In this document: positions 9,861 through 63,839 of the stretch, one piece after another
How the letters are laid out: each line of letters starts with the position of its first letter
Numbering within the stretch: position 1 is the first letter of the stretch
Assembly: GCA_003290165.1 (NCBI GenBank)
Contig: QNQO01000557.1
Span: 603,720-667,719, forward strand
DNA: 64,000 nt
Direction of reading: 5' to 3'
Source: Berberis thunbergii
Lineage: Eukaryota; Streptophyta; Magnoliopsida; Ranunculales; Berberidaceae
Notes under the pieces: generated by a model
What the model saw: only the letters and a program-made list of their open reading frames with translations
Database searches by the model: none
Told to the model about the DNA's origin: nothing
Program-made: the position numbers and the translations under genes

Positions 9861-10482
9861 TCAATCTAATGGCATTAGTCCCATTCCTTTCGAGGTTTTG
9901 AAAACCTTCTCTCTAGCTAATCCTTTCGTCAAAGGATTAGCCAAGTTTGCATCAGTTCGTACATGATCCAATCTCACAACACCAGTAGATAGAATTCTCT
10001 AACCATACTGTGCTTACGACGTATTTGTCATTTCTTGCCATTATACTAATGGTTCTGTATTTTTCGCAATAGCCGCGGTACTATCGCACTGGATCAAGAC
10101 AGCTGGAATCAGTCTTTCCCATAAAGGAATTTCTGCTAGCAGGTTTCTTTAGCCAACCTGCTTCTTCACTAGCCGTGGCTAGTGCTATCATTTCTGACTC
10201 CATCGTGGCCGGTGCCAGAATGGTTTGTTTCTTTGATTTCCAAGAAACAGCTCCACCAACTATATTGAAAATATAACCACTGGTGACTATGGAGTCATCT
10301 GAAAGGTTGGTATAATCAGCAACGCTATATCCTTCAAGGACAGCGGGAAACTTCTGATTATTTAATCCGAGGTTCTTAGCCCTCTTAAGGTACGTCATGA
10401 CCTTTTCAATTGCATTTATAAAGGATAAGACTTCTTGAAAGCTAATCCTCCTCGACTGAAAAGACATAGTAATCGGAGCCAA
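9861..10482 (-). pseudogene. Copia polyprotein C-terminus (RNase H)
   Basis: The clean frame from 10482 down to 10081 contains AVLEGYSVADYTNLSDDS, TSGYIFNIVGGAVSWKSK and ATMESEMIALATASEEAGWL. These match the Copia RNase H domain with its DA(D)W, SGY, SWKS and ESE motifs; the usual EGYSDADW reads EGYSVADY, so a catalytic Asp is changed. After a frameshift the terminal part continues with VRTDANLA, LTKGLAREKVFKTSKGMGL and a stop at 9861-9863, the usual Copia ending. Everything upstream in the polyprotein is missing. Confidence 0.85.
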
Positions 10483-12944
10483 AGTTTTTTTCGAAATTCG
10501 TTTCCGTTTACTTCTCCAAGGCTCAGATTTTGTGGCTTAATCAGTTTCATTCATCCTTTTCATAGGCACGTTATTTGAGGATGTACCCCCACTATTCCTC
10601 GAAATAACCCCCACTATGCCTCAAAAATAAATGCAATGCATCTTTACATAAATTAATTCTTTGAGAAACAAAAAATCTTCTCACAAAAAATCAAAATCCA
10701 CATAATTATTTTTAGCATGTATAATGTTAAAAATATGCGTGTGCTTTCCATTAAGGAACTTTTGAACTTTGGTTCCTCTAACTATTATCAAAAAATAGGT
10801 TTAGCACCCTTTTGAATGCATATTAAGTGACGGTTCTTTTTGCTAGTTGTAGCAGACCGTGCATTCAACTGTTAAGGACCCACACAATGAGAATATTGAA
10901 TAAAATACCCATTCTATTCACCTCGCTATTCTCATTTTCTTTTAAGTTCAAGAATCAACACAAAATATCATTAGAAAACGTACCTTAAATTCAGCTTCTG
11001 AATTTTTCAAACTTTGATGTAATCACCAAGCTAGATTTGTGCATCCTCTGGGAATTTAGTTGCAGACTTAGATAATAAAGTTCTGCAACAAAATCAAGCA
11101 ATAGCTTGAATTGTTCTAGATTGCCATCAACATCATCATCATGAGAACATATCCTTTCCATAAGAATTCATGTCCTCATGTGGAAGTCCGACCAACTTAT
11201 GGTCTGAGCAAAATCATTTATGCATTGACATTTAGAATAAAATTCACAGGTCAATCTATATACAAATGATTCCTTATATTCTCCTTATGTCAGCTTAACA
11301 TCAAACATCAACTGTAACATTAATCACAAAGTTTTCTTTCCATCAATAGTATTGAGAAATAGAAGCATTCTAATTTGCACAATAGATCAATTATTGTTCT
11401 CACCAAAATAGACTGAATCATCCAAAATGCATAACATAATTATCATAGAACTGCATACTCATTATCTAAAGAGTAACATGCATAGATGATATTATTCACT
11501 TCTCACGAAATGTTCAAATGGAATTTATTGATTCAGATTTCATGATATTCCAACTCAAAAAGCCTAAAAGAGTAGCACCTTTATGAAATTTAATTTTAAA
11601 GCATGGTGTTCTATTCATACACAATCTCCTCTAGTTAGTCCTCCATGGTTTTAGAGTTTAGACCACATTTTACATTGTCAACATGTGTATGTGTATGTCA
11701 ATCTCTAACTACGTTAATCATAATGCAAATTAATATGATTTCACAATATGGTTGTAAAGTCACCATAAAAATATCTTTAAAAATACACAACATGGAAAAC
11801 CACCATTATAGATAAAGATATCTGAAATTGTAAACGTAGTTGTAAAACTCTAAATCATGTGGATCTTTAAATATAACCCTCTTTCCAAACTTTTCAAATG
11901 TTGCCACGGGGTTGTATCCTTGCATAGAAAACTGCTCCCAACCCAATTTGACAACAAGAACTACCACCCAAGATAACAAAGGTACATAAAGCAAACAAAA
12001 CTAAACTCCAATGCTTGGAACAAAGTTTGTTTAGGCTAATGGGTTCCAAAAATAATTAAATTGACACACACATAAAAACTGTGTTTGTGTTTGAAACGGA
12101 AGGACTTTACCCTTCCATATTTTGCAGATTTTTTTTTATGAACAGATGTTCCCAGATTGCCAAATTGTCAATCTAAATAAACTCCAAAACGACTTATAGC
12201 TCACCATTGCCATCAATCAACTCTGGCCCATTGAACTCACAATATGATTTTAGTTTATTTACAGGACAATTTCGTATAAATAAACTAAGAGATTGAAGAA
12301 GTCTGACAAAGCAAAAAAAGGGACTACCATTCAACATTATTTATAATTAGAAGTCAATTTCATGGAAACAGATGACATTGATGTGCAATCAAACAATGCC
12401 TCCACAATAGTTTTTCAATAAAGATCACTCGAACTTTTATCATTTAATATATATTTTCATTGATAAAAGCTTATTCAAAACAATATTTTTGAGCCAAGCA
12501 ATTGCAGATGCTTATAGTTTCATGAATCAACATATATATGTATTCAATCTATGTCAGATTGATCTAGCATGTTCAACCCAATTTGAGACAAGAAACAAAG
12601 CAATCAATCTAATCTGCGTTTATTTTGGAGGATAAAATATCATTTTTGAATATATAAGAAAAACACTCTTGGGTAGAATATCTCATGCAATATATAAAAT
12701 CAGGACTAATTCGCATACATACAACCTAGTTAAAAAGGTTATCCTTACAAACCCAACATTATTGAATAATCACATACTTATAAGTAATGAAACCAAAATT
12801 TCCCTAGAAACACAGGGTATTATTTCAACCTAGTCAATTTCATTACTTGTTCCATCTTCATTATATTTTCCGTAATTTATATTATGGAATATAAAGGGAT
12901 CATTCTTTTAATCTTAGTCATAGCAGAAAGAAACGTCTTAAAAT
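10483..12944. other. Copia interior without recognisable coding sequence
   Basis: About 2.5 kb of AT-rich sequence where gag-pol should lie. No zinc knuckle, protease, integrase or RT motif could be read on either strand. The bases next to the 5' LTR (minus strand ATTTTAAGACG) do not look like the usual initiator-Met primer site, so the priming region also appears lost or replaced. Confidence 0.5.
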
Positions 12945-23646: not shown

Positions 23647-23649
23647 CTA
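23647..23649. repeat. 3-bp target duplication of the Pack-CACTA (left)
   Basis: CTA directly before the left terminus. CTA also follows the right terminus at 33670-33672. CACTA elements make 3-bp duplications. Confidence 0.7.
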
Positions 23650-23689
23650 TACTATACCAAAAGGCTTGATTAGCTATATGGAGATGGCC

Positions 23690-23845
23690 ACGGCTCAAAA
23701 CCGTTACTTTATTTGCTACGGCCTATAAAACTATGGCTAGATTAACTACACGGATATGACCACGGCTTGAATCCGTTGATTTATTTGTCACGACTTAAAA
23801 CCGTTAGATTTATTTGCCACGGCCCAAAACCGTGGCTATGGCCTA
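23690..23845. repeat. Left subterminal repeats of the Pack-CACTA
   Basis: Units such as GGCCACGGCTCAAAACCGTT, GCTACGGCCTATAAAAC, GCCACGGCCCAAAACCGTGG. They are the same palindromic CGG...CCG type as at the right ends at 2417 and 33669. Confidence 0.8.
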
Positions 23846-24262
23846 CGCGAGAACACAACTCACATCCCGCCATTGCGAAAACCATAACTCACATCTCGCC
23901 ATTGCGAAACAGTTTCGCGGTATTGAGTGAAAAAAATTAGCAAGGAGCTCCATTTTCGTTCAAATCAGAGGAGGGAGGAGTTCCAGTTTTGGCCTTGTTG
24001 TCGCTCTCGTTGTCGTTCTCAAATCAGAAGAAGAAGGAGAGAGGAGCCTTTAATGCTGAGTTTGGTGTGAAGAAGAAGAAAAAGAACACACTGATCTTTC
24101 CGTCCCTCCTTCAGTTCAGATCTCCTTTTAGGTAAGATCCTTCTTCTTCTTTAGATCTCCTCTTCTTCTTTTTCTTCTTCAGATCTGTTTCAGATTTAAT
24201 TTTTTCTTTCTTTCAGCTACTAGTGTTCCTTCGCCTCTGTTGGGATCTTCTACTCGAGAGAG

Positions 24263-25045
24263 ATGTTGAGGTTGAAGCGTTTGACATCTCTTCACCAGCA
24301 GAACCTCGGACCTGCTTTCGCGAATCTCCTCGATACAACAAGTGCAAGAAGAAGAGGAAGATATGAACAAGATGAGACCTTACTTCAGACTCTCCCTTCA
24401 CAGAGAACAACCTCTCGCTTCCTCGACATCCACCAGGTTCTTCTTCTTCTCCAGATCTCATTGTACTCCACTTCGTTTTTCTCTCTGTTTAATCGAAAGA
24501 TTCAATCTTTTCGTTTTGTAGATGGGTAACAAAGCGACCATCGAGAAAGAACGAGCTAGACTGTATGGTTCTCCCCGAATTCCCTAAAATTTTACTATAA
24601 GTGATTTTTTTGGTTTAATGGTTTTTTTTGCTCGGAATTTATTCAAACAATTGATGGGCGTTTTTTTTGTTTTATGGGTGTAGGGCAGTAAAGATGAATT
24701 GGACAGAGGGTATTTTGCGGACATTTCAGAGCTCAAGAAACATGGTGGCAAGGTAAGGTATGACGCCTGCTAAACAAGGCATACTACTGATAGTATAAGC
24801 TGGGGTTTTAGAACCATTGGTTTTGAGTTGCTCATTCAATTTGTGTTTTTATGTAGATTTATGTGGCCAATAAGATTATCATTCCAGCCATGGCAGCTGT
24901 TAAGTTTCCAGAAATGGAAGTGAGTCTGTCTGACGGTACTAGTCTGAAGCTGCCCATTATTTCTCAACATAAAGAGGTTAAAGAAGGAAAAATTGATGTC
25001 CCCCCAGCATCGCTAATATGTCTATCGTTCCGAGCAAACTCTCAG
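24263..25045 (+). pseudogene. ATP10: ATP10-type mitochondrial ATP synthase assembly factor, 5' half (captured)
   Basis: Four exons splice in frame: 24263-24436, 24522-24562, 24689-24752 and 24857-25045, totalling 156 codons. The protein begins MLRLKRLTSLHQQNLGPAFA, which looks like a mitochondrial targeting peptide. It continues with NKATIEKERARL, KDELDRGYFADISELKKHG, AVKFPEMEVSLSDGTSLKLP and SLICLSFRANSQ. This matches the N-terminal half of plant ATP10-like proteins, which help assemble the F1Fo ATP synthase. All splice sites are intact and there is no frameshift. A pyrimidine-rich leader lies at 23930-24262, so the 5' UTR and perhaps the promoter came with it. The C-terminal half (thioredoxin-like fold) is missing: after 25045 the sequence passes through about 1.2 kb of noncoding DNA into an invertase exon. 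It could supply a promoter for a chimeric transcript. Confidence 0.75.
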
Positions 25046-26215
25046 GTTTGTGAATTTTTGTTTTTACTAATTGGTTACGAAGTATGAATCGTTTGCACTT
25101 TTTTCCTTTTGCAAAGTTAGTAATGCAAATGATAATTTATGCTTTAATATCTATACAAACTCGAAGGGGCAGGGAGCCTTTCAAAAAACAACTTCAGTTT
25201 CTGTTGATTTAAGTGAATAATAGTTGAAAAGAATGGTTATTGACTAAACCCTTAAGCCACAATGTTCAGTTTCTTGATTTTTTTTGTTGTATTTAATGTT
25301 GAATAATGTTGTTTAATATTTGATACTCTGATGCTTGTTTGTTCTTTCGTTGGTAAAGTTCATAAATGCTTGTTTGTTCTTTCGTTGGTAAAGTTCATAA
25401 TTTGAAGTTATCGTGATTGTATATGTGATGTGATATGTTGTTGCAAGACACTAGTTGTTTGAATATATTCTCTGGTTCAAACATGAAATGGATCACAAAC
25501 ATAGATAAATCAGAAATATGTTATGTAGGATCTATTTATAGTCTTAAGCATTTGTAGCTGCCAATGCTCCCATTGCTTATTTCCTTTTACAAGTCTTACA
25601 ATGATGCATAAATCTGCAAAATAAACACAAATAATAAGCATTTAAATCTTGTTTTGTCTGATTGAGCTATGTATGACTCAATGGAAAACAAAACACAGTA
25701 CACTGTTGCTGTATATAATTTGTACAATTTTGGTAGGTGCTGTGGTGGATTAAATTAGCTAAAGAAATTGAAAATATTGATGGTTTTAAGGACATTTTGT
25801 GTTTCTTTTTTAGATAAATATATATGTTTTAACAATCTCTCATTATTGGACAGCAATCTGACATGTAATGAGTAGTTAATATTTGGTGTCCCATTTTGGG
25901 TTTTGATGTTTTCTTATGGAACTGTAACTGATTACAAGGTTTCCCTATTCTTGAAACCCATTCTCGTGTGAAGTGCAAAAGGTGTTTTAGATTTGATAAA
26001 TAGTAACGTACTTACGGTACAACACTTGGGGTCAGTTTGAGATACTGGCTGGGAGCTATGCACACAACATAGAAAGTTTGGTCCACAGTGGCCTCTAGCT
26101 AGGAGACCGGGCGCTCCCTGCAACACTGCTCTTTTTAGTTTGAAGAATATTGTGCTTGCAAGGATGTGAATTTCGTATCATTTATTGCAAATTGATCAGC
26201 TCCTGTTCTTGACAG
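25046..26215. other. Noncoding filler between ATP10 and invertase fragments
   Basis: Intron-like sequence; the junction between donor genes must lie here. A 34-bp tandem duplication (unit beginning ATGCTTGTTTGTTCTTTCG) lies at about 25331-25400. Confidence 0.45.
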
Positions 26216-26668
26216 AGCTGGGAGAAAACAATGGACTGCCATAGTCTTGGTCAAGGGCTCATGCCAGCTAGTTTTAAGGTGCGCACAATTCCACTTGATG
26301 GTGATGACTTTGCAACCGAAGAGGTTTTGGATCCTGACTTTGGGGAGGCAGCGATTGGGCGTGTTGCACCAGTTGATTCTGGTAAATAAATTGTCAACTA
26401 AATGTCTTTTGGAAAATTTATTTGGTAGTGATTAACATGAATTTATGACGATTCAGGATTGTGGTGGATTATACTGCTACGAGCATATGGAAAATGTTCT
26501 GGAGATCTTTCTGTTCAGGAAAGGATCGATGTCCAAACTGGGATTAAAATGATTCTAAAGTTATGTCTTGCAGATGGCTTTGACATGTTCCCAACATTAC
26601 TGGTGACAGATGGTTCTTGCATGATCAATTGTCGCATGGGAATTCATGGCCATCCTCTGGAAATTCAG
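26216..26668 (+). pseudogene. Alkaline/neutral invertase (GH100), two captured exons
   Basis: Alkaline/neutral invertases hydrolyse sucrose in the cytosol, mitochondria or plastids. Exon 26216-26381 reads [20 protein letters not shown] through [18 protein letters not shown]. Exon 26457-26668 reads [60 protein letters not shown] and [11 protein letters not shown]. These are the most conserved central exons of the family, joined by a proper intron, with no frameshift. The invariant IDRRMG motif reads INCRMG here. Both changes are transitions, and the lost Asp is, as I recall, the likely catalytic acid. The N-terminal third and the C-terminal half are absent. Confidence 0.9.
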
Positions 26669-27417
26669 GTATTCAGTTCGTCTGTTTAATTGCTTATCTA
26701 TATCTAGTTAAGTAGATTTTTTCCATTGCTACCAGTCTGGGACTCTTGGGTTATGCATCCAAGTTGAGTTTATGATGCGGTATACAAAATTTGGTTATAT
26801 TATCACAAATGTGGTTATGTAGCCAAGTTGAGTTTGTGATGCAGCGTACCTAAGTTGGTTCTTTATGACAATTGCGGCAAGTAGGAATACTACTTTTTTC
26901 ATTTTATCAGGGTTTTAAGACTTAATATTGTGACAGACAGTGAATACAGTTGAGAATAGTATTACACAATCTCTACACTTAGTATTACAATTTGTTGTTG
27001 TGTGTACACTTAGTATTCACGTGCAGTGTTAAGTGTTGGTTGGATACTCTCTCTGTTTTCTCGTTATCTATCAATCAAGCGTTCATTATGTTATGTGGTA
27101 TAGAAAAAGTAAACATGAATTTTGTTTTGTTTTAACCCAATTTTGGGGCTTTCTGAAAATGGGTTTTGGTTCTGGTTGTCATCTGTACCTACCCTTGTGA
27201 TTTCATACTATTTGAGGCTTTGCTGAAAATAGGGTTTGGGAATAACTGGCAGGCTTTCTGAAATTTGGGGTTGGAAGGCATTTTTGGTTTTTGGCAAATA
27301 GATAAGTTTCAATGTGTTTTATAAATGTGTTTGAGTTTTCTAGGATTTAGACAAATTATCTGAAATGGGTTTTGAATTATGAACAACATAGTTGTTAATG
27401 GATTGACTTTGAAACAG
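26669..27417. other. Noncoding filler between invertase and EEP fragments
   Basis: Intron-like sequence with no exon seen. The next invertase exon (ALFY...) does not follow, so the capture boundary lies in this stretch. Confidence 0.45.
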
Positions 27418-28945
27418 GCTGTAGAGTCGAATTTTGTTAAGACTAATACCCCTGGACAAGAGAGTAGACGCAAAGGAAGGGTTTCGAGACTTGTGAGCCA
27501 TGTGAAAATGGCAGATCCTTGCATTTCCTGCACTACATTCAATATCCTTGCATAACTACTGTCTTTATGAGTGGCTTAGACCTCAATCATCTTCATGTGT
27601 GGTTGTCTACGCTCAAACCATGATACCATGTGGAATCGTTAGTGTACACGCTTGAAAATCCAATAGTTTACCTTTAGAGATATTAAAATTTCTTGCATGA
27701 TTCATATTTCCCACTAAGGTCTCTATCTCCAATTTTTACACAAAATTTAGCACTACTAGATTCTCTTTTGCTTTCACTACACAAAAAGTCCTCTTGGGGT
27801 CCAGCTGCACATGAAAAAAATTGGCTCAGACAACATAGAGCTTGAGATGTATGCATGTTGAATAATTTTTGACAGCACATAATGCATGAATGAGTCCCAC
27901 ACACAGTACATCGTGATTTATTTTTTTTTGAGGATTTTTCTTTCTTTTGACACATTAGAAGCACACTGATACTTTCTACTTTTGTCATTGGAAATCATTT
28001 TAGTACCCTTATTGTGAAGTTTGGTAGTTGTCATTTAACTCTCTTTTTTCCGCACTTGATGGTTCTGTTGAAAAAGCAAGTATCCTAAAGTCTGGCTTGA
28101 GGGTTTCCCACTGATCAGCTATGCAGCAGGCTTAGCAAATACAAAAATTTTGTGAAAGAATAATCAAGTTGAGATGGTTTAGTGCAAAATCCCATTCTTA
28201 GTTTATGAGGTGTTCTTTCTCTCACACACTTAGGCCTCAGTAAACTTGATTCCCATTTTGTTCAGGCCACAAGTTATACTGAAACATGGTGTTCTAATTC
28301 TAAAACCTATTCAGATCTGCTTTGTTGTTGTTGTGTGGGATTGTTTATCACTATTATTACTTATTTATTTATAAAAATGTTATGTTGGTAACAGGTAGTA
28401 TTGTTCTTCGGATTGAACTTTCAAGTTGTCTGAATGAACTAGCTAGGTTGTTACTGATCTCTTACCCATGAGCTTTAAAATAATGTCTGACTTGTTTTAA
28501 TAAATTGTATCAGTCTGCTACAGGTTTGCTGACTGCTGTTCACAAGGACTACTTCAAGATTGTAGACTATCAAGAGTTGTTTTTCAATGACTTTGGAGAT
28601 CGTGTTGCTCAGCTTTTACATGTTGAATCAGTTATACCATTTTGGAAAGGCAAGAATCGAAATGTGCAGCAAGAAATTCTTATTGTGAATACGCACCTCC
28701 TATTCCCTCATAATTCTAGTTTGTCTATTGTACGGTTACATCAGGTAGATTTGCCTTGTTTCTTATGCTGTAATTACATCTTATTGGTGTAGTTTCAATT
28801 TTCTTTGCTTCATCAGAGCATTATCATGTTGTTGCTTCCTGTAACTGTGTTATTATCTAACTGGTGATGCAGGTCTATAAAATCCTGCAGTATGTCGAAT
28901 CATATCAGAAAGAGAACAAGCTTAGCAATATGCCCATCATAATTT
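27418..28945 (+). pseudogene. Calcium-binding EEP-family protein (At1g02270/At5g54130-like), captured exons
   Basis: Three segments match plant proteins that pair an endonuclease/exonuclease/phosphatase (CCR4-like) domain with EF hands. 27418-27552 reads TPGQESRRKGRVSRLVSHVK then ADPCISCTTFNILA. 28514-28744 reads GLLTAVHKDYFKIVDYQELF, FNDFGDRVAQLLHVES and NTHLLFPHNSSLSIVRLHQ. 28873-28945 reads VYKILQYVESYQKENKLSNM, PIII. Frames are intact within each piece. The exon holding the QE active-site region is missing between the first two. The last piece stops just before the expected CGDWN catalytic motif, where the sequence switches to the duplicated segment at 28946-29225. The EF hands are absent. 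I have not assigned function beyond the family. Confidence 0.85.
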
Positions 28946-29225
28946 GTTTGTACTTCTAGGAATAAAAGTGGGGTAACTTTCTTTCAACCTTTCATTTCTT
29001 TGTAGTCTTTCAAAATTCATTTTATTTTAAATCTTTTGGATGACTTATTATGATTGCTTAATATGTGAAGGCAATTACATGACAAGTAATGTTTTTCAAT
29101 TGTTTAGGCATTTCACATATTTCATACTTCCTGCCTTGTACACTGGATTCTTCTCTGTGAGTCTGAAATTTGGAAGAATCAGCCACTCTCAATAAACATG
29201 GATGGGGAGATTATGAAACCAAAAC
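28946..29225 (+). repeat. Internal duplication in the Pack-CACTA, copy A
   Basis: About 280 bp, from TTGTTTGTACTTCTAGGAAT to ATGGGGAGATTATGAAACC, recurs at 32384-32660 with about 95% identity. It contains an exon-like segment with a PLSI-type open frame in copy B, which is broken here. The origin gene is not recognised. Confidence 0.85.
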
Positions 29226-29335
29226 TGTCAGTGAAATTTGTCAGTTATCAGGTTCTGATTTCAACTTTAGGGTCTTGAAATTTGTTCCACTGTATGTTAC
29301 TTAAAAACTGTCAGTTATCAGGTTCTGATTTCAAC
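29223..29335. repeat. Short tandem duplication
   Basis: The block AAACTGTCAGTTATCAGGTT plus CTGATTTCAACTTT occurs twice: once ending near 29269, with an intervening GTGAAATTT, and again at about 29306-29339. It lies directly before the polyamine oxidase fragment. Confidence 0.6.
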
Positions 29336-29375
29336 TTTCATATTGCAGGAGAAAGTGTCACTTTCAAAAGACATT

Positions 29376-29462
29376 TACCGGTGGTCATGGGCTTATGGTG
29401 CAAGGGTATTATCCTGTAATAAAGGCTCTTGCAAAAGACATTGACATACGACTCAATCATAG
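29376..29462 (+). pseudogene. Polyamine oxidase (PAO2-4 type) captured exon fragment
   Basis: Reads GGHGLMVQGYYPVIKALAKD then IDIRLNH. This matches the conserved segment before the substrate-domain strand in plant peroxisomal FAD-dependent polyamine oxidases, which oxidise spermine and spermidine back to smaller polyamines. One G seems to be missing in the preceding Leu-Pro-Gly codons. The piece is only about 85 bp and fuses without an intron to a SnRK2 segment. The FAD-binding Rossmann motif and the rest are absent. Confidence 0.75.
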
Positions 29463-29466
29463 TGTG

Positions 29467-29547
29467 TACATCACTGTAGCAAGGCTCGTTAGAGATAAGA
29501 TGACTAAAGAGCTTTTTGCTGTCAAATTCATTGAGAGGGGGGAAAAG
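29467..29547 (+). pseudogene. SnRK2: SnRK2 protein kinase, captured N-lobe exon
   Basis: Reads ITVARLVRDKMTKELFAVKF then IERGEK, with a GT donor directly after. This is the end of the Gly-rich loop and the ATP-binding VAVK-type lysine segment of SnRK2 kinases, which act in osmotic-stress and abscisic-acid signalling. It joins the polyamine oxidase fragment within the same exon-like stretch. A second SnRK2 exon lies about 3.3 kb downstream at 32801-32901, so the SnRK2 capture was split by later insertions or by separate captures. Confidence 0.8.
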
Positions 29548-29885
29548 GTAAACTAATGAATGCTCTTTATCCTTTTTTTTTTTTTTTTTTTTTTAAATTT
29601 CCATTGATTGATTAAATGGAATGAAATGGGGGGTGGGGGGTTTTTAATGTACTTCTGTTTGGTTCTTTCGGGGTTCATTGGAGTTTTGATTTGATTATTG
29701 ATTGAAAACTTTGGATATTTAGCTTATGTCGTTGTTTCTTTCTTTTTTTCTTCCAAAGTATTATTCAAAATAATGAAATATTCTTGACTCTGAATATTCT
29801 GTGTTTCAATGTTTTTTCATTGTCATCTATCGCGTTCTGCATATGCCAGTGTGTAAGCAATAATTTTTTTATTATTTTTTCTTAG
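29548..29885. other. Noncoding, with long T run
   Basis: Intron-like, with T tracts near 29572-29595 and a G-rich run near 29628-29640. No exon. Confidence 0.4.
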
Positions 29886-30828
29886 GATTAAGAATGATGA
29901 TAAGATGATTCAAGCAGAGGGCGTGGAGTCCCTTTCTGAAGGCGAACTTCGTCAAGCTTGTCGAGATAGAGGCTTACTTGGATTGCTTTTAGTCGGGGAA
30001 ATGCACAGGCAGATATTGTGCTTCTATAGTTTTTATTTATTTATTTTTTATTTTTATAATCATACAGTTGGAGTAAGAGCCATTTCAGTTATCTTAAATT
30101 ATGTATTATGAAATTTGAAGATTGATTGATGCTAAGTAACTGAAGATTCTCGTGAAGCTGATGAAAACCATTTTTCTTCTGCAAAATGTACCTGGTTTCA
30201 TATGTTGCTTGTGTCTGCCACTTCTTTGATTGGAGTTGGTTTCCCGCAAATATCGTGGACTTTTTTGCATCATAGTCTGATTCCTTCATGGGTGGTGAAG
30301 TGAAAAAAAAAAATAGAACTGGCAAATAATATTACTTGTGAAATTGAATGCTAAGAGCACGCATTAGTTTGTCTTTTCAACAGTCTGCACGATGCTTTTG
30401 TAGCTGAACAGTTTTCTTCCTTTACACCGTACAAACCACAAATTTCTAGAACAGGAAAATGTGTTATTTATAATATTGCTACTATTTGATCAAATGTTCT
30501 TGATGCAGCTTCATGATTGGTTGGATTTGTCCCTTAACCATTCAGTGCCATCTTCTCTTTTGATTCTATCAAGGTAATCCAAGTTTGACACATATTGTGT
30601 GGTTCAAAATTTTGGTCCACTATTAATCCTGTTTTTGCTCTTGATACCATCTGCAGAGCCTTTACTGTGTCTGGAAAGCTGAGGTTGGAGGAGGCTGTTA
30701 TGAGCACAATGTTCTCTCTGCCAGATGAGGTTGTGGGCAGTGTTGGTCTTTCAACCTTGACAGCCGGAGATTCCCTCTCAGACAAGAAGAGGAAAGTAGA
30801 ATACCTAGAAATGCAAGAACTTATCTGG
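29886..30828 (+). pseudogene. LETM1: LETM1-like mitochondrial inner-membrane protein, captured exons
   Basis: LETM1 proteins affect mitochondrial K+/H+ and Ca2+ handling and translation. Exon 29886-30012 reads IKNDDKMIQAEGVESLSEGE, LRQACRDRGLLGLLLV. Exon 30509-30573 reads LHDWLDLSLNHSVPSSLLIL. Exon 30657-30828 reads AFTVSGKLRLEEAVMSTMFS, LPDEVVGSVG and KKRKVEYLEMQEL. These cover the LETM1 ribosome-binding-like domain in order. The donor after 30012 reads AT instead of GT, so normal splicing there is unlikely. The later Glu-rich coiled coil and the N-terminal transmembrane part are missing. Confidence 0.9.
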
Positions 30829-30884
30829 GTACAGATGATATTTGGATTTTATGATTTAAATGTTAAGGGGTGTTCTTGTCATGG

Positions 30885-31181
30885 CAGTTTGCAGCTTCAG
30901 ATGAGCTATCAAGGCAGTTTCTGAATATGCCAGAAGAAGCAATATCTCAAGCAGCAGCAAGTGCAGAAGAAGGATTCCAATGGCTAGAAGGAGTAAGGTT
31001 GGAGGAGCCTATGCACAATTTGGAGGGATACTTGTCATCAACGTCTCAAGCAGCAGCAGTAGCACCATTCCCTTGCCTCAAAAGCCGAAGCGCGAAGAAA
31101 CTTGAAAGATGCCCAAAACTGAAAACAGGAGGAAGACTGGGATGTGATCGAGATGGCATGCTAGTACAGCGAACATGGTAA
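30885..31181 (+). CDS. Unrecognised exon-like open frame
   Basis: After a possible AG acceptor, an open frame reads FAASDELSRQFLNMPEEAIS, QAAASAEEGFQWLEGVRLEE and onward for about 95 residues to a stop at 31179-31181. It is Ala/Glu-rich, with a basic C-terminal part. It does not match the expected LETM1 continuation, and I do not recognise it. It may be an eighth captured gene or chance coding. It could be the 3' end of a chimeric transcript. Confidence 0.35.
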   Translation, partial: QFAASDELSRQFLNMPEEAISQAAASAEEGFQWLEGVRLEEPMHNLEGYLSSTSQAAAVAPFPCLKSRSAKKLERCPKLKTGGRLGCDRDGMLVQRTW

Positions 31182-31847
31182 TGGTTTTCTGCCATTGAAG
31201 AGGTAGCCATTTTCTTTAAATTTCTTCTCTTAGTTTTGATTTGAGTTGAAGTTTAAGATGGTTTCTATAGGCTCTTGGATCTATCTACTTATAGGACCCT
31301 AAGTAGTGATTAGTGACTACTGCAACCTAGGACCCTAGGCTACTCATCTAAGCTCCCTTTGGGCATGCAAGCACCTAAGTGCACTAAGGATACTTTTACA
31401 ATTTTGTCAAACACAGTGAGCAGCTCAATTTTGTTTCCCTTTTCAACTTTGTTCTAACTGTGATTCATCATCTTTTCCATTAAGTTGCTTAGTTGGTTCT
31501 TAACTGATATGTTATTTGCTTTGTGACCTGTTATGTAGCACAATTTGCAATTTTCTTCATGAAAATGTCACCAGGCTAGGCTAGTGAGTAGCAATCTAGA
31601 CTGATTCATTATGCGTAAATAGCTGAAGTCTGATACAGAGGCACTTTGAATATTGATTATACTAACCTGATCCACAGTTGAAAATAACTCGTCATTATGG
31701 AGGTGAAAATAGAAACATGTTTGGTGGGTTGCCTGTCTCCTTCACTGGAGATTGCAAATGATGTGAAATTGGGAATCATGCTATAATAATTATGAGGGGA
31801 ATTGTTATTTTTATACTTTCATAAGATATTTTGTCAATTGCTTGCAG
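31182..31847. other. Noncoding filler
   Basis: No exon seen between the open frame ending at 31181 and the ERMP1 fragment. Confidence 0.4.
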
Positions 31848-32330
31848 GTTATTTCGTCCAGGACGTTGTAGCAGTAGTTGGGGTTGTAACTGGATTTTGT
31901 GTTGGTCCATTGCTTCCTGTTCTGGGTCATTGGCTCGGCAGATCATCCATCATACAACTCTAAGTAAAATGGATGCATATAATTATCAGGGTCATTTAGC
32001 AGTAGATGTGTCATTTAATATCTAAGTAAAAAATGGACCACCATTATGGTATGTTATTTAGGGTTTCAGAAATAACCATCTGTAATACTCTTGTGAATAG
32101 ATGCATATAATTATCAGGGTAACTCTTTGCATGTGTTGTAGGCTGCATTTTTATTGCATTAAGTCTCCATTTGGTCATGTTCTGAAAGTTTATCTTTTGG
32201 AATTGCAGATGCATTTCAGATTAAGGAATCTAGCTATGATGTTTCTGTAGTTGATTCCAATTCCTTACATTTTATTTTCAAGCATGCTCCCGAAGCAGCT
32301 AGGGAATTGCAGATATGTCAACATAAACTT
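31848..32330 (+). pseudogene. ERMP1: Endoplasmic reticulum metallopeptidase 1-like (M28), captured exons
   Basis: ERMP1 is a multi-pass ER peptidase of family M28. Segment 31848-31960 reads DVVAVVGVVTGFCVGPLLPV then LGHWLGRSSIIQL, matching a membrane segment of plant ERMP1 proteins, and then meets a stop. Segment 32209 to about 32330, after an AG acceptor, reads IKESSYDVSVVDSNSLHFIF then KHAPEAARELQ, matching the lumenal region just downstream in the family. The zinc-binding peptidase domain is not present. The frame runs on to about 32407 with unfamiliar sequence (LLPGKDVAYLLNMKTRRLV), which may mark another junction. Confidence 0.75.
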
Positions 32331-32383
32331 CTCCCAGGCAAGGATGTGGCATACTTATTAAATATGAAGACTAGACGACTTGT

Positions 32384-32700
32384 TTGTACTTCTAGGAATA
32401 AAAGTGGGGTAACTTTCTTTCAACCTTTCATTTCTTTGTAGTCTTTCAAAATTCATTTTATTTTAAATCTTTTGGTGACTTATTATGATTGCTTAATATG
32501 TGAAGGCATTTACATGACAAGTAATGTTTTCAATTGTTTAGGCATTTCACATATTTCACACTTCCTACCTTGTACACTGGATTCTTCTCTGCGAGTCTGA
32601 AATTTGGAAGAATCAACCACTCTCAATAGACATGGATGGGGAGATTATGAAACCAAAACCAAAAGTATCAATTGGAGATGCCAAGATTCTTACCTCAGTC
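32384..32700 (+). repeat. Internal duplication in the Pack-CACTA, copy B
   Basis: Partner of 28946-29225. In this copy an exon-like frame from 32543 reads FHTSYLVHWILLCESEIWKN, QPLSIDMDGEIMKPK, ending at a TGA near 32701. The donor gene is not recognised. Confidence 0.8.
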
Positions 32701-32800
32701 TGAGGTTTGTACATTAAGGAGCCAAGTTCAAACACTTTTTTAATGGCATTAACACTATTTGAAAACAAGTAAAGTGATGAAGTATTTCTTATCCTTGCAG

Positions 32801-32901
32801 GTCTTGTTAACTCCTACTCATCTTGCTATGTCATGGAATATGTAGCTGGTGTTGAACTCTTTGAGAGAGTGTGCACTGCAGGCAAATTTAGTGAGGATGA
32901 G
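32801..32901 (+). pseudogene. SnRK2: SnRK2 protein kinase, second captured exon
   Basis: Begins after an AG acceptor with VLLTPTHLA, then after a one-base deletion continues VMEYVAGVELFERVCTAGKF, SEDE, and ends at a GT donor. This is the hinge and alpha-D region of SnRK2 kinases (usual form VMEYAAGGELFERI). The exon has 101 bases where 102 are expected. The intervening exon (IDENVQREI...) was not found. Confidence 0.85.
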
Positions 32902-33300
32902 GTATATACTATGGGCATTGAGGATTATAACTTTGAGATATTTGGTTAAGACCATTTTGAGGGCGACCAATTTTCTACGTCTGCAGAATTTCTCTTCACT
33001 TTTTTTTTTACGTAAATTCATATGAACAAATATGTAAGTATAAATTCTTATTTTTTTTCAAAGCAAAACATGGCATTGTATTACTTAATATTTACATTTC
33101 TAGTGAAAAAAGTAGTTCTGAAATTTTTTGAAATTAACATTTTTCATATTTTATGGGAGTAGCATTCACCACGTTCTCAACAAGAGTACCCTCCCTTTCA
33201 TTGTGGTTTCTATGTTGAATCAAATGTTTTCTTTTTTTCTTAGATAAGATAAAATTGTTAAGGTTCAAAGAGAATATAACCGTGATTTTGCAGGTGTGGG
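32902..33300. other. Noncoding, end of Pack-CACTA cargo
   Basis: AT-rich sequence with no exon. From TGTGATTTTGCTGCA at about 33302 onward it matches the right-terminal region of the element ending at 2417. Confidence 0.4.
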
Positions 33301-33669
33301 GCTGTGATTTTGCTGCATTTTTTTTTTTCGATTATATTAATTTGCAACGGTTTCAAACCCTCGTAACAAACCAAATTTTTTTTTTTTTTTGAATTTTGTT
33401 TTGACTGGCCATGGCTTAAAACCGTGATACTTCATGCTTGCCACGGTTTGCCACGACTTAAAACTGTCGCCATCATGTTTGCAACGGCTTAAAACCGTGG
33501 CTAAATGCAGAAAATCATCAAGAGTAAAGCTGTTGCTAATATGTGTTGCCATGGTTTATAGCCGTCAATGGTGATTTGGCGACGCCTCAAATGGCTAGGC
33601 CTCTAAGCCGTGGCAATATGTTACCCCAATGGTCCCAAATCGTTGCTGATGAGTATTTTTGGTGTAGTG
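33301..33669. repeat. Right subterminal repeats and terminus of the Pack-CACTA
   Basis: Contains TTGCAACGGTTTCAAA, GGCTTAAAACCGTG, CAACGGCTTAAAACCGTGGC and similar units, and ends TTTTTGGTGTAGTG. The first 100 bp are near-identical to 1737-1850. Confidence 0.8.
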
Positions 33670-33764
33670 CTAGTTGTCGGAGCTTTGTCACTGTTCGCAC
33701 GAGGAGCCCGAATTCGGGCACGGTGTTTGATATGTCTGTCCCACGGGACCGAGCTATAATTGCT

Positions 33765-35225: not shown

Positions 35226-35759
35226 CTAGAAGTGGTGCAAATGTTCGGACGAGTCTGTTGTCACGTCATAGAACTCTAGTTTTGACGGAGTGAATTTCTT
35301 CGGCAAATGCTTGTTCATCATATGATTTATGAATGACAGGATAGTGAGGTTGAATAACACGTCAGGATTGGTGGTCCCTAGCCGGACGAGGTTCAGGGAG
35401 ACCTGTCCGTCAAACTTAGACATTGGGTCTCCGTCTCTGGTATACTGAGAGCCTGCAGGGGCAACACGACTCTCTTGAACACGTTCCCTTGTGTTTTCGG
35501 GGACGGGGCTCTTCACTGCTCCCAATTCTCTTTTTGCGGGTAGAGGATTTTGTTGGGTGAGCATTTCCAGCGCTCGAGCAATCTGCTGCATTTGGGTTGA
35601 CAGTAGATCCACCCTTGGATTTGTCGTGGCTGCCACCGGCGCAGGGGTCTGATTTTGTTCCTTTTGCGGTGCCAGATTCATCAAAACTGTCGGCACTCTC
35701 ATAGTACGAGCATTTGAGGAGTCAGGGATGTCTCCATTGTTGCGAGATCTCGTGGTCAC
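35226..35759 (-). pseudogene. Gypsy gag, N-terminal part
   Basis: Starts MTTRSRNNGDIPDSSNARTM and contains a Gln/Pro-rich linker, STQMQQIARALEMLTQQ and LPKKFTPSKLEFYDVTTDSS, EHLHHF. This is the start of the plant Gypsy gag core (normally LYDGTTDPEEHL). The frame of 177 codons ends at a stop inside the domain. Confidence 0.8.
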
Positions 35760-35837
35760 AATATCTCTTTACTATGAGGCGAGGTGATATCACTGTTTTT
35801 TCAAGGAACTTCGTCGTTCCCTAGGACGACGCCAAAC

Positions 35838-55064: not shown

Positions 55065-58000
55065 ATGACAATATTAAATGACCCTGTTTCCCTCACATAG
55101 GTTCGGGGATAGACTCGACTCCAATTGTATTTAAAAGCACAGATAGACCCGTCTCTATATTTAATATTGTCCAACCTGAATTCTTAGTTGGCAAATATTA
55201 AAAGCAACCCTCTTTGCCTTTAACTGATTCTCGGCGATTAAATCGCGACTCCATGTATTAAAAGCGGGATAAACCCAACTCATTTTAATTATTTCGCTTT
55301 AAAATTCTTGGTTTGCAAATATAAAAGATTGTGTTGGCCTCACGGTAAGTGGTTTAATATTTGGCGCATAAGTTGGGTTCTGGCATAAAACCCGAACTAA
55401 GCATTGTTATTAAGAACATGGGATAAGCCCAGAAGTGGGCTTCGGATAGATCGACTCCATTTTTAAATTTTCAACCATAGAATTCTTAGTTGACAATATT
55501 TAAGGACCAGTTGCCTCACAGTTTGTCGAGATAGACCCGACTCCATTTGTATTGAAAGACGGGATAGAACCGTCTTCATTTTATTGTTGTGAACTTTAAA
55601 TTCTTGGTTGGCCATGTTAAAGATCGTATTGCTTCACATTGTCACTATATTTGGCTCAAAATGGTTCGGAGATAGACTCGACTCCATTGTATATAGAACA
55701 TGGGATAGACCCAGAAATGGGTTCAGGTTAACCTGATTCCATTATATTAAAAGATGGGATAAACCTGAAAATGGTTTCGGAATAGACCTGACTCCATTGT
55801 ATTGTAAGAAGGATAGATCCGACTCTAGTTTAATATTGTCAATCTGGAATTCTTAGTTTGGCAATATTTTTTTTGGAAGGCGAGCTGGGTTTTAAGATCC
55901 CATAACCTATCAACTGGGCGACCTATAGGTCAACACCCATTAGAAAGTAACCATGCCGCAGGTGAGATTTGAAGCTAGGACGTGGGGGACAACCCACACA
56001 GCTCTAACCATTAGACCATAACACCATTGGCAACTAAAAGACCCCGTTGCCTTATTAAAGACCTGTTGGCAATATTAAAAGACCCTGTTGCCTTATTAGT
56101 TCGGGATAAACACGACTCCAATGTATTAAAAGATGGGTGACCCGTCTCCATTTTAATATTTTAGACCTAGAATTCTATTTGGCAATATTAAAAACCATGT
56201 TGCCTCACTAGATTCGGGATTGTTGTGACTCCATTCGATTTAAAAGACGGGATAGACCCGTCTCCATTTTACTAATTGTTAGCTTTAAATTCTTGGTTGC
56301 ATTATTAACATCGTTTTGCCTTACGTAGTCGCAATATTTGGCTCAAAAGTGTATTCGGGATTGACCCGACTGCATGTATTAAAGACGAGATAGGCCCGTT
56401 ACCATTTTAATATTGTCAACTTGGAATCTTTAGTTGTCAATATTAAAGGACCCTGAAAGGCGGATAGACCCGTTTCCATTTTAATATTGTCAACCTGGAA
56501 TTCTTAGTTGGTAATATTAAAGGAACATGTTGCCTCACTAGATTCAGGATAGACTTGACTCCATTGTATTAAAATACGGGATATATCCGTTTTAATTTTA
56601 ATATTGTCAACCAAGAATTCTTAGTTGGTAATATTTAAGAACCCTATTGCCTCATTAGATTCAGGATAGTCCCGACTCCATTGTGTTAAAACGGGATAGA
56701 CCCATCGCCATTTATTATTGTCAGCTTTAAATTCTTTGTTTCCAATATTAAAGATCGCGTCGCCTCATGTAGTCTCTATATTTGACACAAATGTTGGTTC
56801 GGGATAGACTCGACTCCATTGTATTAGAACATGGGATAACCCTAGGAGTGGGTTCAGGATATACCCTACTCCATTTTAATATTGTCGATTGGGAATTCTT
56901 AGTTGGCTATCGTAAAGATCTTGTTGCCTCACTAGGTTCGGGATAGACCCGACCATTGTATTAAAGGACGGGATATAATCATCTCCATTTAATATTGTAA
57001 GCTTTAAATTCTTGGTTTGCAATGTTAAAGATCGTGTTGCCTCACGTAGTCGATATATTGGGCTCAAAAGTGGCTTCGGGATGACTCGACTCCATTGGAT
57101 TAGAACATGGGATAGACCCAGAAGTGGGTCTAGAAAGACCCGACTCAATTGTATTAAAAGATGGGATAGACCAGACTCCATTTAATATTTTCAACCTGAA
57201 ATTCTTAGTTGACAATACTAAATGTCCCTGTTGCCTTGTTAGTTCGGGATAGACTTAACTCCATTGTATTAAAAGACGAGATAGACCCGTCTTCATTTTA
57301 TTGTTGTCAACTTTTTAATTCTTGGTTGGTTATATTAAAGAGCGTATTGGCTCACGTAGTCACTATATTTTGATCAAATGGGTTCGGGATAGACTCGACT
57401 CCATGTATTAGAACATGGGATAGACCCAAATGTGGGTTCGGGATTGACCTAATTCCATTGTACTAAATAAGGGATAGACCGAAAATGGGTTCGAAATAGA
57501 CCTGACTCCAATTTACTAAAAGAGGGGATAGACACGACTCCATTTTAATATTATCAGCCTGAAATTCTTAGTTGGCAATATTAAAGGACTTGTTGCCTCA
57601 TCAGGTACAGGATAAACCCACCGACTCCAATTATTAAAAGATTAGATATACCCATTTCCTTTATAATATTGTCAACCTGGAATTCTTAGTTGGCAATATA
57701 AATAACCCTGTTGCCTCACTAGATTCGGGATAGACGCGACTCCATTGTATTAAAGATGGAATAGACCCGTCTCCATTTGTTATTATCAGCTTTAAATTCT
57801 TGGTTTGCAATATTAAAGATCATGTTGCTTCACGTAGTCGCTATATTTGGCTCAAAAGTGGTTTGGGATAGACCCGACTGCATTGTATTAAAAGACGGGA
57901 TAGACCCGTCTCCATTTTAATATTGTCAACTTGGAATCTTTAGTTGTCAATATTAGAGTACCCTGTTGCTTAACTAGATTCGGATAGATTCAAATCCGTT

Positions 58001-58085
58001 GTATTAAAAGCGGGATTAGATCCGTCTCCATTTTAATATTGTATTAAAAGTCGGGATAGACCCGTCTCATGTATATTATTGTAGT
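55065..58085. repeat. Satellite-like tandem array, about 3 kb
   Basis: Some 25 degenerate units of about 115-120 bp. Typical pieces, in order: TTCGGGATAGACCCGACTCC, ATTGTATTAAAAGACGGGAT, AGACCCGTCTCCATTTTAAT, ATTGTCAACCTGGAATTCTT, AGTTGGCAATATTAAAGGAC, CCTGTTGCCTCACTAGA. A variant half-unit (CACGTAGTCGCTATATTTGG then CTCAAAAGTGGGTTCG) alternates with the basic one, suggesting a longer higher-order period. GACGGGATAGACCCGTC within the unit is a near-palindrome. Copies are about 80-90% alike with many small deletions. No coding potential. Confidence 0.88.
55865..56026 (-). mobile_element. tRNA-derived SINE inside the array
   Basis: On the minus strand a tRNA-like head carries an A box (TGGTCTAATGGTTAGAGC) and a B-box-like GCTTCAAATC about 35 bp further. 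It is followed by a tRNA-unrelated body and an A-rich tail (TTCCAAAAAAAA). The array unit is interrupted exactly here, and TTGGCAA occurs on both sides (55858-55864 and 56027-56033), a likely target duplication. Length is about 162 bp, usual for plant SINEs. Confidence 0.75.
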
Positions 58086-61141: not shown

Positions 61142-62522
61142 TCATCGCTGACTCCCGACACTCACAGCATCTCCCCACATATCTGAAGCTATAGTTGCTC
61201 TCCATTCATTAGCATTCTCTCGTTGTTGATCTTGCGTTGAAAAATTCTCTTCTTCTTCTTCTTCTTCCAATGGTGATGAAGGTTCGTCGTCTTCTTCAAT
61301 TGGAAATTCATCAGAACGACACTCTTTACGAAGAAAGTTGTGCAATGCTACACGCTAGCACTAACTCCACTTGTGTTTTATATGGAAATGGAGGCGCAGA
61401 CTTAAAAATTGTAAATCGTGATTTAAATATACCAAATATCCTCTCAATTACGTTTCTCAATGACGCATGACGAAGATTGAACAACTCAGCTGGATTTTCA
61501 GGGTCGCGACCATGACCAGCAAAATCTCGGAGATGATATCGAACACCTCGAAATGGAGCTAAAAATTGGGACGATTTGCAAATCCACAGTCAACTAAGAA
61601 ATATTTTCCTGAAAATTCACCACACAAACAATTAGAGTATCAATAATAAACACACGATAATAGAATAAAAGAAATAAATATGTACCTTGTGGGACATGAA
61701 GTCTGTTACTACTCCTTGACAAAGCATCATTTAACACTTTAGAATCATGTGCTGAACCTTCCCATCCACTTAGAACGTATATGAATTCCAAATCAAAGTT
61801 ACAAGCAGCTAATACATTTGTGATTTATTTCCGTGACGATCACGATAACTAGCAACTTCACGCCCTGTTACCATTGCATGTATGTGTGTGCCATCAATAG
61901 CTCCGATGCAATCCTAAAATAAAATCACGATTTCACAAAATAACAAAAAAAATAACAATAACAGTAAAAAAAAAAAAAATTTAGTACATACCTTAAAGTA
62001 AGGGTAAAATCGTGTACTCTCCAATATTTTAACTGGCGTTGTGGATCTTGGTTTGGCCATCATCTCTGGTGCTATTGTGTTTAAGGTCATGAGAACTTTG
62101 TTGAAATTTTTGCTTGTTGCGAAATGTGATCTCTTAAATGTGTCTTCAGTTTGACAATATCGAGAATTTTGACCAACAGTAAGCAAAAATGTTGCAAGCA
62201 TTTCTTCAACACATATGAATCTTGTGTCTTTCAAATTTGTTTTCTCTCTAACAATATTGCATAGCTTCATAAAGACATCAGGATACATACGATATAACTG
62301 TCGAAAGTGTTGAGGATCCTCACCTAATACTTTATGTATATAATTGTATCCAGTTCTTGTAATTGGTCGTCGGATTGGACGTTCAACACGTTCAACATGG
62401 TCGTCATCTATTATACTCAATAATGCATTTAAAACTTTAGTGGTTGCTTCAATTGCCACCATTAACAACTTTATGGTTTCATAATACATTTCCTCCAATT
62501 CTTCGTCTTCCATTTGAGACAT
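61142..62522 (-). pseudogene. PIF/Harbinger DDE transposase (HARBI1/DDE_4 type), frameshifted
   Basis: Exon 1 (62522-61992, 177 codons) starts MSQMEDEELEEMYYETIKLL and contains CVEEMLATFLLTVGQNSRYC, the N-terminal helical domain, with a GT donor. Exon 2 (61913-61686) has DCIGAIDGTHIHAMVTGREV (first catalytic Asp in AIDGTH) and LSGWEGSAHDSKVLNDALSR (second Asp). Exon 3 (61608-61142) has KYFLVDCGFANRPNF, YHLRDFAGHGRDPENPAELF, NLRHASLRNVIERIFGIFK (catalytic Glu) and an acidic tail. About 405 residues in all, normal for the family. Frame breaks: one A missing after KSQ in exon 2, one T missing after RPNF, and two bases missing after VLAC. All three catalytic residues remain. The partner gene lies just upstream in the same orientation. 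Confidence 0.88.
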
Positions 62523-62811
62523 TATATAAAATCACCTAAATAAATGAATCGCATAATTAGAAATAAAAATCAACATACACCTTTTTATGTTTAGCCAATA
62601 CAAAATTGAGTGAGCTAACACTAAAAATTAATATATCACCTAATTGCACATAAATAAAAGTATAATATTAAAACAAACAAGTCATAACATTGACCAAATT
62701 CTTAAACACAATATCCAAAAAAAAATCTTAACCAAAATTCCAACATAAGATAAAAACATTAATAGTTTCAAGACACTCGAAAATGTTAAACATTATACCA
62801 AATACCCATAC
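62523..62811. other. Spacer between the two Harbinger genes
   Basis: AT-rich, 289 bp. Contains nothing recognised. It may serve as the transposase promoter. Confidence 0.4.
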
Positions 62812-63839
62812 TCATTCCATATTGTACTGTATCCACGCCAAACGCTCTTCAAGTGACATTTTCACAAATGCGTCTTTCATTCCCAACTTGTTAGCCAATT
62901 CAAGTGTTTTGAAACGAGCATGATTATCCATGTTTGGAATCTCTTTGATACAATTCCAAATGTTGTCTTTCTCTCTATCATGTTCTCTTTTTTCATTAGG
63001 CCGTGTATTCCTTGAATTTCACTGGCAATTGTACTAATTGAATCCATGCCAGCACAAACTTTTTCTAGAAGATCAGCTCGAGTGGTCTCAATTGGGGTAC
63101 CATATGTTTGACGCTCTGTTCTAGCTTTATTTCTTGGAAAAAGCTTTTCAGTAGGGGCCTCCAAATTTGTATCTAGGAAAGATGGTGAAGCATAATCGTT
63201 AAGTGACAGAGTTTGGTCTGAGTTTTCGTAAACCTCATTGTTATCATCGAACATGTTTTTCATTTTCTTCAAGTCCATATGTTCTAGCATCGGTACCATC
63301 ACCCAATCCAAGTGCATTTTTTCCCAACAGCTGTTCCATTGCCAAAAATAATTTGCAAATCCTCGTAATCTTCAAATGATCCATTGCGAAGATTTTTCAT
63401 GTTTGGTGGGACTGTTAAAAATAAGAACAAAAATATATTATTAATACTATGAAGGTGTAATTTTCAATATAAAATAAAATTAAACATAAATAAAATATCA
63501 CCTTAAAGTAATCTTCCCATATTTCATTATCAGCCGTGAACTTTTTGAAGACAGCATCCCATCCAAATCCAGAAACTATAGCGCAAAGGTCAGCAAAGTT
63601 TGATATTGGTTCTTAAACCATTTCATTCGGTTCTGACTAGTGTTTATAGTTTTTGGCACCCTAGCTTTTCATTGAGAATTGGAAGTATTCTTGGTTTTCT
63701 ACTGTCTGCTTGCTTATTGCACCATTAGCATCAGCCACACATGTTTGATGCCATCAACAAGTAAATCCTAACAACATCTATGCTCTCTTGCAAGGATCCA
63801 CTGGTTATATTGCCCCTTTCCTTGTTTTGAATCTCCCAT
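62812..63839 (-). pseudogene. PIF/Harbinger partner protein (Myb/SANT-like), frameshifted
   Basis: The likely start at 63839 reads MGDSKQGKGQYNQW, then LLVDGIK. MKWFKNQYQT and SGFGWDAVFKKFTADNEIWE, DYFK form the Myb/SANT-like trihelix. After an intron come NLRNGSFEDYEDLQIIFGNG, then a linker (TLSLNDYASPSFLDTN), and the C-terminal IKEIPNMDNHARFKTLELAN, KLGMKDAFVKMSLEERLAWI, QYNME with a stop at 62812. In this superfamily the partner binds the element's ends and helps the transposase. At least three frame breaks are seen, including an extra A after GTAVGKK. Confidence 0.8.

Follow-up and report, generated by a model that had tools for sequence, protein, structure and literature searches.

The stretch of DNA analysed here, a window of 64,000 nucleotides (64 kb) from Berberis thunbergii with plant-like genes, contains at 23650–33669 what is very probably a single non-autonomous CACTA (Pack-CACTA) element that transposed as a unit, with pieces from nine identified host sources as cargo. 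The composite appears to have been built by joining or converting blocks of elements that had already been amplified, with deletions at microhomologies, and its cargo appears to be broken passenger DNA. The evidence comes from copies of the whole chain, from simpler relatives and from candidate donor loci, all in the same genome.

Copies of the composite and family ends

The composite is present at three sites, each represented by two contigs. For the window itself (contig C557), C8350 has the same insertion and flanks, with 99.83% identity over 15,003 bp, and is most simply the other haplotype. At the second site, the chain in C162 spans about 23690–33669, with 95.9% identity over 9,722 aligned bases and with the extreme left end lost; C6394 pairs with it (flank 97.5% identical over 560 bp). 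At the third, C6891 carries 24791–33669, with 23650–24790 missing, and its identity to the window is about 90% over 24791–26061, 95% over 26043–33282 and 88% at the 3´ end; here the paired contig is C233 (99.4% over 1,171 bp). Since large copies of the chain lie at two other sites, it has moved as one piece, which excludes independent insertion of its parts.

The element is flanked by identical CTA target site duplications at 23647–23649 and 33670–33672. Its right terminal inverted repeat, CACTACACCAAAA at 33657–33669 on the minus strand, begins with CACTA; the left one, TACTATACCAAAA at 23650–23662 on the plus strand, has two bases altered, the first base included, and the 13-bp ends are identical at 11 of 13 positions. 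Matches to the 13-mer end with up to two mismatches number 10 in the window against 2.6 expected, and the ends by themselves are therefore weak evidence. A subterminal palindrome near CACGGCTTAAAACCGT, counted with up to four mismatches and with shifted matches included, has 53 matches in the window (mean of 20 mononucleotide shuffles 3.9, maximum 8). Clusters hold 42 of the 53, with 27 at 1797–2377, five at 23689–23818 and ten at 33346–33597, and 11 are scattered. The transposon 5´ region (23663–24215, plus strand, palindromes at 23689–23835) is common to family members and unmatched in the ATP10 donor locus, and the 3´ region (33283–33656, plus strand) matches the family and holds the palindrome array at 33346–33597. 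Terminal inverted repeats beginning CACTA, a 3-bp target site duplication and subterminal repeat arrays place the element in the CACTA (En/Spm) superfamily. Host gene DNA between the ends, donor genes at separate loci of the same genome and cargo that transposed with the element make it a Pack-CACTA. No transposase is among the assignable pieces between the ends (no search aimed at transposases was made), and no Rfam family reached gathering score anywhere in the window. Elsewhere in the window, a second, related CACTA right end (TTTTGGTGTAGTG, 2405–2417) adjoins a long array of the element's palindrome (1797–2417); its left end was not found in the window.

A search of the 2.24-Gb assembly with the first 421 bp of the element gave at least 41 matches (40 of 1,792 candidates scored), and 18 other left-end loci, allele pairs included, were compared over 9.8 kb each with a match cut-off of 60 bp and E up to 1e-6. 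Their left terminus reads CACTACACCAAAA in 11 cases. Sixteen extend beyond 24500 into the ATP10 piece, eight show a correctly oriented 3´ end (33283–33669, in part) within those 9.8 kb, and 26043–33282 is matched in none of the 18 at this cut-off. Relatives at three sites are flanked by matching 3-bp duplications (AAT, TGC and CAG). Different gene pieces are present in two relatives, L011 and L022, where 4 of the 10 open frames tested encode DUF4005, Elf4, ABC2_membrane and Ferritin_2 domains. In the parts of L017 and L021 that were fetched, the family's 3´ end is inverted with respect to the left end, which suggests nested or adjacent insertions of one family. The original prediction, made from the window alone, had described CACTA-like ends with a CTA duplication and palindromic arrays at both ends, and had proposed a look for other copies with the same ends. 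The described features hold up, with CTA on both sides, 11 of 13 end positions identical and a family with equal ends, and the left-end family and composite copies supply what was looked for.

Gene pieces and candidate donors

For four pieces, those of ATP10, invertase, EEP and LETM1, the alignment to the host genome that had been proposed as a check yielded candidate donors in the same genome. Introns are retained in the captured pieces, as in the donor loci and as the original prediction had it; DNA was therefore captured, not cDNA. No CACTA end or subterminal motif was found in the three donor loci fetched (4–4.5 kb each). All pieces described below lie on the plus strand unless stated.

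The ATP10 fragment (24216–25572; PF05176), with a 47 bp leader and introns, is 90.7% identical to its donor, C57/L047. Its exons are at 24263–24436, about 24699–24752 and 24857–25046; C57 has the four ATP10 exon pieces in order, adjoined by the C-terminal part of the ATP10 protein family. Similarity to the donor starts 47 bp short of the ATG (24216 against 24263), with transposon family sequence before it (23650–24215), so that capture probably did not extend to the ATP10 promoter. The following stretch, 25573–26042, is common to other ATP10-carrying elements (92–95%) and unmatched in 4.5 kb of the donor locus. Two exons of an alkaline/neutral invertase with introns come next (26090–26962; PF12899, E 3e-52). 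Their donor candidate, C11361/L045 at 96.6%, has the preceding exon, which corresponds to PF12899 profile positions 1–67; the captured exons correspond to positions 68–187.

A fragment of a Ca-binding EEP protein (At1g02270-like) at 27027–28947 was recognized through plant homologues, and its donor, C1428/L046 (97.7% and 95.7%), holds EEP exons on either side of the captured part. At 27551/27552 the fragment lacks 940 bp of the donor, including two complete exons and the end of another. Assignment to a beta-glucosidase was rejected, the basis being a weak PDB match only (E 0.072). The part at 27846–28614 (EEP intron and exon start) recurs with 92–95% identity at 28 or more places besides the composite copies and donor, and may form a mobile or captured unit of its own. 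The LETM1 fragment (29727–30866; PF07766) comprises three exons with introns and is 96% identical to its donor, C766/C931, where residues 1–273, 304–360 and 475–601 of a 759-residue LETM1 protein are matched in order. The LETM1 fragments of three other loci, L040–L042, are not part of a composite and sit in a repeat unit whose flanks they have in common; these loci were rejected as donors, as tblastn there finds the fragment's exons only. In L040 (1469–2223) a CACTA 3´ end stands directly at the border of the unit, possibly a picture of how capture begins.

An exon fragment of polyamine oxidase 4 (29375–29466) is 82–87% identical to two plant polyamine oxidases and has no PDB match; like the EEP fragment it has no Pfam match, and both were assigned through homologous plant proteins. 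It is followed by SnRK2 kinase exon 1 with its intron (29467–29707, the exon itself being 29467–29548), a piece with which it is also contiguous in L043. SnRK2 exon 2 with an intron (32741–33280, exon near 32800–32902) is shared with relatives and is readable only in two frames; judged against the motif, we take this exon to be frameshifted. The ERMP1 fragment (31305–32314, left limit uncertain) has exons at about 31847–31960 and 32205–32314; its ERMP1_C Pfam score is below cut-off, and the assignment is by homology to plant proteins. A piece present twice matches the uncharacterised plant protein LOC122041475 of Zingiber. Copy 1 (28944–29368) is internally rearranged, with matches at 28944–29225 and 29281–29368, and copy 2 (32311–32744) is joined to ERMP1 in the open frame 32163–32438. 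C1240 holds more of the LOC122041475-like gene but is not singled out as its donor, because seven contigs share the piece at 98%. Assignment to a zinc finger was rejected, since the one zinc-finger match of the reference protein, to zf-met, is below threshold and falls outside the region that was captured.

The start of a BPS1-like gene lies on the minus strand at 31136–31294, with a leader and the first 25 codons (31210 down to 31136). It is 98–99% identical to C4825 and C1079, and in C4825 the frame runs on, interrupted once, to encode a PF03087 domain (E 1e-40). With its antisense BPS1 start the chain is of mixed orientation, where a single orientation had first been thought. Next to it, a stretch with an open frame (30867–31135) occurs, among the fetched loci, in composite copies only. 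None of 65 candidates proved homologous to it at E ≤10, and it has no PDB match; PF12338 (RbcS), at E 0.011, is below the family cut-off and was rejected. This is the kind of unassigned frame that the original prediction had listed beside at least seven genes. All seven named genes were identified, and the number of identified sources rises to nine with BPS1 and the LOC122041475-like gene.

Assembly of the mosaic

Several pieces recur in other copies in a partly different order. In L043 (C2015) the series is ERMP1, 1,047 bp, the LOC122041475-like piece, polyamine oxidase, SnRK2 exon 1, SnRK2 exon 2 and the 3´ end. C1079 and C4825 have BPS1, ERMP1, the LOC122041475-like piece and the 3´ end, with additional pieces between. 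In the window, LETM1, the unassigned stretch, BPS1 and ERMP1 lie between the two SnRK2 exons. Three joints of the window show 4-bp microhomology: TTGT between EEP and the LOC122041475-like piece, AGAT between ERMP1 and the LOC122041475-like piece, and TAAT between the latter and SnRK2 exon 2. Relatives with subsets of the pieces in other order, together with these three joints, favour the merging of amplified modules plus deletions over one-by-one capture.

In such a model, an older ATP10-carrying lineage would have contributed the 5´ part, and a lineage with ERMP1, the LOC122041475-like gene, polyamine oxidase and SnRK2 the 3´ part. Genomic pieces of LETM1, invertase and EEP would have been added, and deletions joined at short microhomologies would have produced exon fusions. 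Merging probably took place when elements that lay side by side, or that recombined with each other, were mobilised or repaired together, and transposition would have relied on a CACTA transposase supplied elsewhere. ATP10 looks like the oldest capture because its donor identity is the lowest.

Several observations weigh against these readings. The left terminal inverted repeat has its two mismatches, and the 3-bp pairs of L022 and of L014, which resembles an allele of the TGC site, each have one mismatch. C162 is without the left terminus and C6891 without the part before 24791, so that neither displays both ends or a checkable duplication. The remaining joints that were compared with available copies show no clear overlap, and the internal joints have no relics of transposon ends except one weak motif at 26909, where merging might be expected to leave such relics. 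Finally, the copies of the LOC122041475-like piece form a star-like set, and its duplication is not datable.

Strictly serial capture, in which gene pieces were added singly to one element, was the mode proposed at the outset. The capture of host pieces with their introns stands. Capture times may differ, given donor identities of 90.7% for ATP10 and about 96–98% for EEP, invertase and LETM1, and relatives exist with ATP10 and without the other pieces. The strict one-by-one order is made less likely by the comparison with modules in other copies. The LOC122041475-like piece is present twice, and the SnRK2 exons are split, whereas L043 keeps ERMP1, the LOC122041475-like piece, polyamine oxidase and SnRK2 in series. 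Moreover, the ATP10 part of C6891 is 96% like L018–L020 and 90% like the window. We therefore regard strictly serial capture as unlikely. Part of the chain could instead have been made by another mobile element, e.g. a Helitron or a Mutator-like element (MULE), and secondarily taken up by CACTA ends. Composite copies and donors not counted, the LETM1 piece recurs at 12 places among the matches listed and the EEP intron/exon piece at no fewer than 28; these recurrences, and the common flanks of the three LETM1-carrying loci, which resemble another repeat unit, would fit such an origin. It is nevertheless quite improbable, as the polyamine oxidase, SnRK2 and LOC122041475-like modules elsewhere accompany the 3´ end of this family, and no foreign element boundaries were seen in 24216–33282, where no specific search for them was made.

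Two further explanations concern the composite as a whole. A chance pile-up of unrelated pseudogene fragments between accidental ends, raised with the original prediction as a possible refutation, is hardly credible. A degenerate left end and the 2.6 CACTA-like 13-mers expected in the window are what it has in its favour, and it is contradicted by the chain copies at C162 and C6891, the family ends, the 3-bp duplications and the clustered subterminal arrays. It is also very improbable that selection acts on the composite as a working chimeric gene. The joint of ERMP1 and the LOC122041475-like piece lies inside one open frame (32163–32438), introns are kept, and the ratio of nonsynonymous to synonymous changes per site (pN/pS) between the window and C162 is 0.70. 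This ratio, however, is indistinguishable from neutrality (20 changes at 521 synonymous and 49 at 1,810 nonsynonymous sites; Fisher p 0.19; frames set; the unassigned stretch and two codons that are a stop in one of the copies excluded). Divergence is similar in exons (81 of 2,610 sites) and in other sequence (229 of 6,381 sites; p 0.28), and SnRK2 exon 2 is frameshifted by our reading.

The divergence between the window and C162 is compatible with neutral passenger DNA, and weak constraint is possible too. With no detected selection on its broken cargo, any effect on the host would probably be exerted through chimeric or small RNA. A long chimeric transcript from the element is possible. As only the 47 bp leader of ATP10 is present, its putative initiation is more likely from the transposon 5´ region than from the captured leader that had been suggested. 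Tentatively, and with a little less than even confidence, we propose that the gene-collecting CACTAs of this genome exchange parts as modules. Lineages amplified apart from one another, with different captured exons in each, would swap 5´ and 3´ parts by recombination. The exon chains would then lengthen through new combinations instead of further captures, and deletions joined at microhomologies would leave in-frame fusions as by-products, among them that of ERMP1 and the LOC122041475-like piece.

Comparison with known elements

The element is a rich example of a kind already known, the gene-collecting CACTA, and nine identified sources are not put forward as a record number. Tgm-Express1 of soybean, as described by Zabala and Vodkin (PMC1947982), is a 5.7 kb CACTA in an intron of a known gene, with fragments of five host genes and RNA evidence that captured pieces are spliced into chimeric transcripts. 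Like it, the Berberis element carries exonic and intronic pieces of unrelated host genes; it differs in having nine identified sources, same-genome donors and large copies, and in being known from DNA alone (PMC1947982). In the Tpn1 family of morning glory, with 339 non-autonomous CACTA copies, the ends are conserved and the interiors replaced by captured host sequence, as in the present family, but the accessible portion of that account describes no gene chain of comparable length (PMC5105172). Pack-CACTAs of Arabidopsis and maize share CACTA ends and captured coding DNA, in maize from several loci per element (PMC8903248, PMC13317346); by comparison, the Berberis mosaic is partly traceable through modules, relatives and donors in one genome. 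A hybrid model, in which neighbouring Pack-CACTAs lose their facing ends to give one hybrid element, is described in PMC13317346 and might apply here. The same review treats the order and manner of gene-fragment capture as still open (PMC13317346). With donors, simpler relatives and large copies in one genome, both could be reconstructed stepwise. Gene models in genomes of this sort may also turn out to be transposon cargo.

Other features of the window

Four further open frames, all on the minus strand and with no Pfam match at E ≤0.01, may belong to other mobile elements: one at 35226–35768 is reminiscent of gypsy gag, one at 10081–10536 of copia RNase H, and two at 61914–63371 of plant Harbinger-type proteins. 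An imperfect tandem repeat field with unit lengths of 20 to 277 bp occupies 55658–58083.

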